Shown piece by piece: positions 3,703-24,328 of a stretch of DNA of 57,919 bases. The DNA lies in NCBI GenBank assembly GCA_023145965.1, contig JAGLDC010000036.1, positions 1-57,919 on the forward strand, read 5' to 3'. The notes under the pieces were generated by a model. It had not been told where the DNA came from. It saw only the letters and a list, made by a program, of their open reading frames with translations, and searched no databases. A program made the translations under genes and the position numbers. This DNA comes from a bacterium. GTDB lineage: Bacteria > UBP14 > UBA6098. The first letter of the stretch is position 1, and every line of letters starts with the position of its first letter.

Positions 3703-3858
3703 CCACTCCCCCGGCAGCGCTGTCACGGTTTTTGCTATTTTATAAGTTTAGAAATAGCAGTCCTCTTTCTTGGGCAAAAATCCCCTATCCCTTTCCCACT
3801 CTGTCACAAAATTTGTTTTGTCAAATTTTGCGCCATCGTCTTCCCCCGCGCCAGCGCT
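3703..3858. repeat. Intergenic MITE-like repeat, copy A
   Basis: Starts with GCGCTGTCACGG (3717) and ends with CGCGCCAGCG (3847-3856), so its outer ends read CGCTGNNNCG as imperfect inverted repeats. A second internal CTCTGTCAC occurs near 3800. Inside are TGCTATTT/AAATAGCA (about 3733/3752) and two CAAAATTTG-type palindromes. It shares this order with copy B at 7498 and partly with copies at 19876 and 27395. The rest of the 400-bp gap between radA and deoB is AT-rich and presumably holds both promoters, none of which is clear by eye. Confidence 0.75.
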
Positions 3859-7497: not shown

Positions 7498-7660
7498 CAC
7501 CGCCACCTCCACGCTGTCACGATTTTTGCTATTTCGCATACTCGACTTTGATATTTATTTATTTTCGCGCAAAAATCCCTTTCACCTTCCACGCTGTCAC
7601 GAAATTTGTGTAAAGTCAAATTTCGTTCCATCGTCCTCACCCGCGCCAGCGTCCCCGCCT
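7498..7660. repeat. Intergenic MITE-like repeat, copy B
   Basis: Contains ACGCTGTCACGA twice (from 7510 and 7590) and ends in CGCGCCAGCG (about 7642-7651), with GCAAAAATCCCTTTC and a CAAATTTCG stretch between, in the same order as copy A at 3703. It fills most of the 239-base gap between the methyltransferase and the C45-like hydrolase genes. Confidence 0.75.
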
Positions 7661-13784: not shown

Positions 13785-15428
13785 TTATTTTAAATAGATA
13801 ATTTTCTTCGATAGAGAAATATCTCCTGTTTTAACCCGGGCAAGATATACACCGGATCCGACCGTTTCGTCCGGTGTCCAAATTAATTCGCTCGCCCCGT
13901 CATTGCGAGCCTGCCAGTCGGCGCTTGCCGACCGAAGGGCGTGGCAATCTGTTTCTGATAAAGGCGAGATTGCCGCGTCGGGCGTTGCCCTCCTCGCAAT
14001 GACGTCTATACGCCGTCCGGCGATGTCGAATATCTCAATTTCTGGATTCCCGCTTTCGTTGGAATGACAATCGACGGAAATATTAACCGCAGAATTGAAC
14101 GGATTCGGGTAGGCGCCGATATTATATTCTTCCGGTAGATTAGACTGGTCGTCAATTCCAATCGATTCTACATCGCGCACGCAACGGACATAGTTTTCCA
14201 CACGGATTATATCCCCTTGCGGTCCGTGGCCGTGGACCGGATTGCCCAGCGAATCCACGCCGAGATAAAAATCGAGGGGCGAGCCACTTTTTGGGTCGCT
14301 ACGCTGCGCGCCCGCACCGTGAACATCGATATAGGAATAATAGGTTCTTCCGGGAAGTTGCATCCAACCTGCGGCACGACCGAAGCAAATATAAGCCGCC
14401 GAAGCACCGCCGTAAACCGTCGCGTGAGTTGTGCCGGTCCAGAACCATGGGTAATCTATCGCGCCGGCTTCATTCGTTATAGAGGCGCAATCGAACATCG
14501 GGTCGATAGCAGCGCCAGTTGTGCCGGGAGAGCGGCTATAATCGAGAATGCTCTGAAGTCCCTTCGCATTCGGAAGGCGCCAGTCGTCATGGCCTGCCAC
14601 GGTGAGCGTTTCGGCGTATTCGAGAGCGTCTTCCCAGCTCATACTTCCTGCGCTGTGACCTTTCTGCCACATCAGGCCGGTCGCGCTGTCGGTGAGAGTA
14701 CCGTCGCCGTTATCCGAAAAATCGTTCAAGCCGTAGTCTGCATTTCCACGTACGCAAATAAGCGTGAAGGTCTTGTCGCCCATCGGCATTGCGGTATCAT
14801 AACCTTTGATTCGGCCATCGGCGAAGTTCACTCCGAATAGTTTTGGCACACCGGGGATTGTATATTCATTATAAACGTTACTCGATGCGTATTGCGAATC
14901 GATAGGTCTTTCGCCCGCCAGAGTGTCGCCGTATGCAAAATCGAAAACATCGTCATCGATGAAGGGCTGCACTGCATCAAGAGAGCCGGTATATCCGCTG
15001 ATGTCTTGCCCGTTGAACTTTATCAGCGAATACTGTTCTTTAATCGTCGGCACGCGCCAGTCGCTGTATCCGCCGAAGCTTGCAGCATTGAGGACATCCG
15101 GGTAGGTCTGAACCTCGGTCCAGGTGAGTTTATCGTCGGCGTCCGTGTCGCCGTCGTCATCGGTGTCCGGGGTTTGTTGCCATGTCAGGCCTGTGACGTT
15201 GTCATAGACCGTAAGTCCGTCGCCGCTAATAGTGTAGCTCGGCGCGTTGCCGTCATATTGTGCGTCCTGACCGTAGAATGCCGCGCCGGGGGATGGGGGC
15301 GAGATAACGCTCGAATTATCGTAGCACTCCTCCTGCCCGGTATCGACGATTGGGTAAGTGACCGCGAAAGTGGATAAACCTAGGGCTAAAGTTGCGAGAA
15401 GTAATATATAGGCATGTCTTAATTTCAT
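13785..15428 (-). CDS. Secreted DUF1566 (Lcl C-terminal-like) double-domain protein with sorting domain
   Basis: The 547-residue product has a signal peptide (residues 5-22). Two DUF1566 repeats follow: the first around VTGLTWQQTPD, GGYSDWRVPTIKEQYSLI; the second around DNGDGTLTDSATGLMWQKG, GHDDWRLPNAKGLQSIL. DUF1566 domains are common in surface and adhesin-like proteins. A short calcium-site-like stretch DTDDDGDTDADD lies in the first. The C-terminus has YPNPFNSAVNI, EIFDIAGRR, LIWTP, GSGVYLARVK, KKIIYLK. Two repeat elements are translated in this tail (13899-14003 and 14044-14068). It lies between CotH and the kinase-HD gene with gaps of 23 and 51 bases, so it belongs to the same operon. 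Confidence 0.78.
   Translation of the reverse strand: MKLRHAYILLLATLALGLSTFAVTYPIVDTGQEECYDNSSVISPPSPGAAFYGQDAQYDGNAPSYTISGDGLTVYDNVTGLTWQQTPDTDDDGDTDADDKLTWTEVQTYPDVLNAASFGGYSDWRVPTIKEQYSLIKFNGQDISGYTGSLDAVQPFIDDDVFDFAYGDTLAGERPIDSQYASSNVYNEYTIPGVPKLFGVNFADGRIKGYDTAMPMGDKTFTLICVRGNADYGLNDFSDNGDGTLTDSATGLMWQKGHSAGSMSWEDALEYAETLTVAGHDDWRLPNAKGLQSILDYSRSPGTTGAAIDPMFDCASITNEAGAIDYPWFWTGTTHATVYGGASAAYICFGRAAGWMQLPGRTYYSYIDVHGAGAQRSDPKSGSPLDFYLGVDSLGNPVHGHGPQGDIIRVENYVRCVRDVESIGIDDQSNLPEEYNIGAYPNPFNSAVNISVDCHSNESGNPEIEIFDIAGRRIDVIARRATPDAAISPLSETDCHALRSASADWQARNDGASELIWTPDETVGSGVYLARVKTGDISLSKKIIYLK
13899..14003. repeat. 105-bp palindromic element inserted in frame in the DUF1566 sorting domain
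   Basis: Perfect 11-bp terminal inverted repeats, GTCATTGCGAG (13899-13909) and CTCGCAATGAC (13993-14003), enclose 83 bases with further GC-rich hairpins. The length of 105 bp is exactly 35 codons, so the frame is kept. The translated insert lies between GRRIDV and ELIWTP. The same family seems to be present in pieces at 1735 and 1836. Confidence 0.85.
14044..14068. repeat. Short TCATTCC...GGATTCC-type repeat in coding sequence
   Basis: On the coding strand this reads GTCATTCC...GGGAATCC with an ATTCC/GGAAT stem, related to the intergenic unit at 1871-1896. It is translated as HSNESGNPE just before EIFDIAGR. Peptides of this type mark such repeats in many genomes (general knowledge). Confidence 0.55.
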
Positions 15429-23866: not shown

Positions 23867-23894
23867 AATTTATTGAATAATCGAGACAAGTCAA
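23867..23894 (-). promoter_or_regulatory. Candidate sigma70-type promoter of the rplM operon
   Basis: Read on the minus strand, TTGACT (23889-23894) is followed after 16 bases by TAAATT (23867-23872). This would start transcription about 70 bases before the rplM start codon. Confidence 0.45.
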
Positions 23895-24166
23895 GCTAAA
23901 AAAGTCTCAGGCATAAAAAAAAATAGGGTTTTTCAGAAAAAAATCACTTATTAAATTTGCCATTTTAAGGTGTTGCTTCTGTTTAAATAAGTTGTGACTA
24001 TTAATGCGAAATTTAGATCCTAAGTGTTTCTTGTTTCCAATAATATTTGATTGCTAGCAAAATATCGATTGTGGTCACTGAAAAATTCCATTACAACTAA
24101 GAATTGCAAAAACAAACCGAAGTCAAACCTATCAAATCAGCAAAACAATTTCTACTTTCGTAAAAT

Positions 24167-24328
24167 GCCGGGGGGCATCGCATTTCTTCATCGAATGGAA
24201 AGCTCGCTTTCCATTCGATGAAGAAATAAGCGTGAGGCTGGAGCAAATAGGTTGTGAATAAACCAAAAAAAAGACCAGCCTCACGCCGCCTTCGAGACCG
24301 AAGGTCGAGAAGGTCGATGCCCCCCGGC
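24167..24328. other. Cloverleaf-like structured element (four-way junction), function unknown
   Basis: A perfect 14-bp outer stem, GCCGGGGGGCATCG (24167-24180) with CGATGCCCCCCGGC (24315-24328), encloses three hairpins. Hairpin 1 is a 22-bp near-perfect palindrome (24182-24203 with 24206-24227). Hairpin 2 is a 12-bp stem, GCGTGAGGCTGG (24230-24241) with CCAGCCTCACGC (24275-24286), whose 33-base loop contains a GGTT/AACC mini-stem. Hairpin 3 is CCTTC/GAAGG (24289-24293 and 24309-24313), GA/GA opposed pairs, then GACC/GGTC around a GAA loop. All arms are perfect. It lies between the divergent rplM and aminotransferase genes, outside the rplM leader if the promoter at 23867 is right, and ends 95 bases before the aminotransferase ATG. 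It may be a structured RNA or a mobile palindromic element. The remaining 23895-24166 is AT-rich with nothing recognised. Confidence 0.8.

Follow-up and report, generated by a model that had tools for sequence, protein, structure and literature searches.

The 57,919-nt stretch of bacterial DNA analysed here (the window) carries at positions 24167-24328 a four-armed cloverleaf that belongs to a dispersed family of about 150 copies across four related genomes. Comparison of these copies suggests that their sequence drifts while the four-armed fold stays, and that what is kept is a fold of DNA and not of RNA. In our judgement the element is probably a non-autonomous, REP-like mobile palindromic DNA element that is recognised as folded DNA, and whose arms are kept matched by this recognition, by template switching or by both.

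The cloverleaf of the window and its family

Either strand of the 162-bp element folds into a four-armed cloverleaf. Folded as RNA, the plus strand has a minimum free energy of -107.4 kcal/mol against -52.1 +/- 4.3 for dinucleotide shuffles (z = -13); z is likewise about -13 for the minus strand folded as RNA and for the plus strand folded as DNA, and no shuffle folded as stably. The family's common orientation corresponds to the window's minus strand, on which the whole element scores 155 bits with the first covariance model (R1) and 108 bits with the second (R2). The outer stem is a perfect 14-bp helix between GCCGGGGGGCATCG (24167-24180) and CGATGCCCCCCGGC (24315-24328), and its low-coordinate arm holds the foot of the family, with consensus GGCGTCGG, where the window copy reads ATCG. 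The long palindrome H3 (24182-24227), also recovered by inverted-repeat search, consists of two arms (24182-24203 and 24206-24227) that form 22 perfect base pairs around a 2-nt spacer; it contributes 20 covarying pairs to the 42-copy alignment described below, and its tip GGAAAGCTCGCTTTCC is common to many copies of the window's own genome and of UBA6098. H2 (24230-24286) has perfect 12-bp arms (24230-24241 and 24275-24286) enclosing a 33-nt loop, and the short hairpin H1 (24288-24314) has 6 + 4 pairs around an opposed GA/GA, the only flaw in the arms of this copy. The perfect outer stem and three hairpins described in an earlier sequence-only reading are thus borne out by the folds, the GA/GA aside. 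Its interpretation of the GA/GA as sheared RNA pairs finds no support. The GA/GA is also no feature of the family: many other copies pair H1 continuously. The 4-bp mini-hairpin inside the H2 loop likewise belongs to the window copy and not to the family, in which this loop varies and has a length of about 33-38 nt.

The element lies about 380 bp from rplM (minus strand; PF00572) and about 98 bp from a divergent aminotransferase gene (plus strand; PF00155). The promoter that had been placed at 23867 ahead of rplM coincides with a sigma-70-like match at 23867-23894 on the minus strand, though the regional count of such matches (3 vs 1.7 in shuffles) is not above that of shuffled sequence. A role as terminator of the neighbouring genes was rejected, since the genes on either side of the window copy diverge and the sole terminator-like match is a small hairpin of 5 pairs (24165-24178), a competitor of the outer stem. 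Two short and mutually similar inverted repeats elsewhere in the window, at 7591-7634 and 3802-3835 (TGTCACRAAATTTG / CAAATTT), are perhaps another small hairpin repeat.

The genomes of the family that we compared were the window's own (G000), two congeners whose identity was confirmed by shared 200-mers, the MAG SpSt-1142 (G001) and UBP14_UBA6098 (G002, here UBA6098), a second genus (G003) and a third genus (G004, 80% complete). A blastn search of the element against G000 gave four further clear matches, at 70-76% identity, and an additional weak match that turned out to be a complete copy once it was read. R1, built from six copies, found about 29 places in G000 and many in the two genomes of the same genus. 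R2, built from 42 copies, was run on 17 genomes of the phylum with rough E-values, and gave copy numbers that are approximate, since the assemblies are drafts, both strands score and the first-look filters drop weak copies: about 30 in G000 and about 50 in G002, with minimum counts of 50 in G001 and 12 in G003. It gave zero copies in 13 genomes, namely G004 and 12 from other families of the phylum, and copy number within one family therefore runs from 0 to more than 50. The element had been called single-copy in the sequence-only reading, which is correct within the window and incorrect for the genome. An exact search for the foot pattern gave 53 places in G001, 23 in G002 (a few of them possibly not members of the family) and 6 in G000, and a reversed-pattern control gave 0 in all three. 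Foot-pattern matches in other GTDB species were taken as chance, the best scoring 21.5 bits among the matches that were listed and searched with the model; about 36 such loci were assessed by folding alone. No matches of phage, plasmid or viral origin were found, and membership of an Rfam family was rejected, no family scoring above its gathering cut-off in the window and the best score at the element lying far below the cut-offs.

Over the family the element measures about 125-200 bp, and intact and decaying copies coexist. Many decayed copies in the genome had been named beforehand as an outcome that would favour a plain repeat; the copies are indeed many, but most are intact and only a minority have decayed (among them L030, L036 and L095-L098).

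Placement, gain and loss of copies

Copies in G000, G001 and G002 are mostly intergenic and use tandem, convergent and divergent gaps alike, on gene calls that are simple ORF calls and in which the ORFs overlapping some copies are mostly short. Homology among copies stops within a few bases beyond the foot. Further out, the copies of SpSt-1142 have a weak symmetrical flank motif (about GAGCG...GAAAATC) on both sides, some 18-23 nt outside the foot; the flank motif of UBA6098 differs, being G-rich and then T-rich. No direct repeat at a constant offset, as expected of a target-site duplication, was found among 103 copies of three genomes, and no exact empty-site junctions were obtained, the flanks being too diverged.

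Presence and absence could be compared at ten G000 copies whose two flanking genes are adjacent in the 1.9 Mb of UBA6098 that were read. Four of these sites are occupied in both genomes and six are empty in UBA6098, where the gaps are shorter; with six of ten syntenic sites empty, copies evidently come and go. Among control gene pairs a UBA6098 copy was present in 0 of 52, or 0 of 11 when only gaps of at least 40 bp were counted, so that the enrichment of occupied sites is significant (Fisher p = 4e-4, and 0.035 with the gap restriction). Matches on one side only agree with this, comprising about 20 same-face pairs and 2 different-face pairs. Copies at shared sites are no more similar to each other than random pairs, and relative to each other they lie in the same and in flipped orientation about equally often. 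The orientation is less sure for L036, L095 and L096, decayed copies that make up three of the four in G000 at shared sites. In our reading the sites are a mixture: some are old and have been kept, with their copies renewed or exchanged for others in certain lineages, and others hold more recent insertions. Repeated insertion into preferred sites could also account for the pattern. The window copy was considered as an old shared site and rejected, since in UBA6098 rplM does not adjoin the aminotransferase gene. No copy was found upstream of either gene in the loci read from G001-G004, and as far as tested the window copy is lineage-specific.

In the second genus of the family, nine of the ten copies examined lie, as judged by their flanks, at the same spot within genes whose products carry a secretion-system C-terminal sorting domain, and for one of them an open frame through the element and the Pfam/NCBIfam sorting domain were confirmed. 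At these loci (L243-L258) the H2 loop translates as a conserved IFDITGRLV stretch of the sorting domain, and two adjacent sorting-domain genes hold near-identical versions of the element. The idea that two of these copies are the ends of a composite unit was dropped, as they are located in two neighbouring sorting-domain genes. The window itself has at 13898-14004 a second palindrome, different from the first, that resembles a cloverleaf (CGTCATTGCGAG...CTCGCAATGACG; z = -4.7). It is of the CGTC-REP dimer type and is in frame in a minus-strand ORF (13785-15428), inside a secretion-system sorting domain. Its pattern occurs at 4 places in G000, 5 in G001, 1 in G003 and 3 in G004, and at none in G002.

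Conservation of the fold and rival explanations

Covariation between paired positions is usually read as strong evidence for a functional RNA. In the 42-copy alignment, which the model built to fit the structure and which is biased towards it for that reason, 95.3% of cells are standard pairs, against 70.3% with shuffled partners and at most 49% when slid, and the covariation score is 0.568 against 0.148 and at most 0.122, respectively. Both-side changes were present in 47 of the 51 base pairs, so that the compensatory changes in homologues which the sequence-only reading had proposed as a test are very strongly in evidence. The same four arms were obtained by RNAalifold from the six first copies with no structure supplied, and most copies fold singly into the cloverleaf. 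In H3 all four Watson-Crick pairs are found at most positions; its outer six pairs occur in SpSt-1142 as 11 different 6-mers, with the exact complement in 34 of 35 copies and one-arm intermediates nearly absent, in copies that are nearly uniform and whose loops vary freely. The outer arms, about 130 nt apart, and the H2 arms, separated by the 33-38-nt loop, are paired as well as H3 (95-96%). Apart from the foot GGCGTCGG/CCGACGCC and the inner end of H2, sequence is conserved only at some hairpin tips, and there within lineages; the whole element is near-palindromic and its arms are almost purely Watson-Crick.

Such covariation could be that of a structured RNA, either a dispersed non-coding RNA or an element at mRNA ends whose transcript folds into the cloverleaf, and the many copies that lie just downstream of genes would suit this reading as well. 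If a transcript were under selection, G-U on its strand should outnumber A-C mismatches, as is general for structured RNA. In copies folded with G-U forbidden, counted on both strands and halved, the approximately 3,870 pairs include 34 G-T and 27 A-C, while the 23 tRNAs of UBA6098, taken as control, have 24 G-U and 0 A-C. Over the whole alignment G-T has a share of 2.4% and A-C one of 1.7%; for UBA6098 the values are 0.98% and 0.86%. The pooled alignment has a slight lean to G-T (83 vs 57, p = 0.03), which speaks for RNA and is largest in G000, the genome with the most decayed copies. In gaps between tandem genes the element runs with the genes in 17 cases and against them in 17, the copies at shared sites are about evenly the same way round and flipped, the window copy stands between divergent genes and no Rfam family was matched, all of which argue against a transcript. 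Because G-T and A-C are about equally frequent and the orientation to genes is random, we regard the element as one that acts at the level of DNA; an RNA gene was rejected on the absence of a clear G-T bias and of a strand preference, and we give a structured RNA of any of these kinds hardly any credence. The sequence-only reading had offered a non-coding RNA, a DNA structure and a mobile palindromic element as options, of which the last two, in combination, are to be preferred, and the first finds no support.

Two other explanations are set at the level of DNA. Template switching between arms during replication, proposed from the histories of rRNA and microRNA genes (PMC8794818), could by itself keep the arms complementary with no need for the fold, and the near absence of one-arm intermediates and the free loops in SpSt-1142 fit such mutational upkeep. 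Alone it is insufficient, because it leaves the dispersal, the conserved foot, the nearly constant length of the H2 loop, the three-hairpin layout and the good pairing both of the H2 arms and of outer arms that lie about 130 nt from each other unexplained; decayed copies, moreover, stay unrepaired, and we consider upkeep of this kind very unlikely as the whole account. The cloverleaf could also be a cruciform or four-way-junction landmark for the host, read for instance by a nucleoid, repair or supercoiling protein, in which case copies would be under host selection and converted between sites. Sharing of sites above expectation (4/10 vs 0/52, or 0/11 with gaps of at least 40 bp) and the excess of same-face over different-face one-sided matches favour a host site, and copies at shared sites that are no more alike than random pairs are what gene conversion would give. 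Against it are the six empty sites among the ten, the range from 0 to more than 50 copies within one family, the decay of several copies and the position of the G003 copies inside genes, and on balance a host site appears unlikely.

Known repeats, a candidate enzyme and the proposed mechanism

In behaviour the element is nearest to REP-type palindromes, and above all to the CGTC-tagged REP dimers (Di Nocera et al. 2013, PMC3733652), which include RPE-4 and RPE-6 of Rickettsia and dRS3 of Neisseria. Like the element, these are dispersed palindromes that hold CGTC, mainly intergenic and sometimes within genes, without a known dedicated transposase, and mostly head-to-head dimers able to fold as one large structure (PMC3733652). 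They are defined by an unpaired terminal CGTC tag, an 8-9-bp stem beginning with A-T pairs and a 4-5-nt loop (PMC3733652). The element was not assigned to them: its CGTC is paired within the 10-14-bp outer stem in nearly all copies, and is followed by G, and there is no such monomer hairpin but one cloverleaf of 125-200 bp. REPINs and GTAG-REPs with their RAYT (PMC3116915, PMC8266576) are, like the element, small intergenic palindromes in tens of copies, with a single-copy Y1 gene in the genome and no target duplication. A place among them was rejected, as GTAG or CTAC occurs within 12 nt of the foot in only 2 of 75 copies and the Y1 protein of these genomes scores 16.7 bits for REP_Tyr_transpos, where the cut-off is 80, with no copy adjoining its gene in the loci read.

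A classical MITE is bordered by target duplications and ends in terminal repeats that belong to a known transposase. The element resembles such MITEs, as well as ERIC, NEMIS and bcr1 of B. cereus, in a length of 100-160 bp, intergenic dispersal and inverted-repeat ends. We did not class it as a MITE in view of the absent target-site duplication in the 103 copies of three genomes; no autonomous transposon sharing terminal repeats was seen near copies. An integron attC site was excluded, the RYYYAAC and GTTRRRY end boxes being present in 0 of 75 copies. Mitochondrial double-hairpin and repetitive hairpin elements (e.g. PMC2800124) are likewise dispersed DNA repeats that form hairpins and are not known to have an enzyme; they differ in belonging to organelle genomes and in having another architecture. 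No description of this family was found in the literature searched, outside which most subscription journals lie. Dispersed palindromic DNA is a known kind of repeat, and it is the cloverleaf together with covariation at the level of DNA that is unusual.

A gene for a Y1 (IS200-like) transposase-like protein is present in all five genomes of the family (in G000 encoding 133 aa, G000:C80:26769-27101; orthologues at L083-L088). It is single-copy in most of them, with two identical-looking places in UBA6098, has ordinary gene surroundings and looks domesticated. The protein passes the Pfam cut-off for Y1_Tnp but falls short of the curated cut-offs that NCBIfam sets for IS200 and REP transposases. 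Y1 as a proven partner of the element was rejected, since no copy flanks the gene in the loci read and the gene occurs also in G004, the genome without the element. As the sole single-strand transposase candidate found, it is the natural one for a single-strand mechanism, and only a lead.

The mobile palindromic DNA element that we favour would be recognised and copied as a folded DNA cloverleaf, either single-stranded or cruciform. We infer that this recognition is by an enzyme acting in trans; such a putative enzyme, encoded elsewhere, would read the four-way shape together with two stretches of conserved sequence, the foot GGCGTCGG/CCGACGCC and the inner end of H2. Spread would be restricted to copies that fold, whereby arms would change together. 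Arm-to-arm template switching in replication can produce both changes at once, and probably contributes to the perfect arms. Several observations weigh against this reading: no linked cognate transposase was found near copies, neither a target duplication nor an exact empty-site junction was obtained, the double occupancy of 4/10 syntenic sites vs 0/52 controls fits long-lived host sites too, and there is the small pooled excess of G-T (83 vs 57). A bolder version, which we put forward as doubtful, is that the family represents a class of mobile DNA whose heritable identity lies in its four-way-junction fold more than in its sequence. Here a putative enzyme would read the extruded or single-stranded cloverleaf by its shape and short foot and copy it into favoured intergenic sites in either orientation, the copying keeping the arms complementary while stems and loops drift.

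Our data describe a family that is large and clean and behaves as DNA in spite of its extreme covariation, and the count of G-T against A-C, set against tRNAs, provides a simple control that separates DNA from RNA covariation. The approximately 150 natural variants of one DNA cloverleaf also make it possible to ask how near-perfect palindromes persist in bacterial chromosomes, whether through template switching, through copying or because the fold itself is selected.
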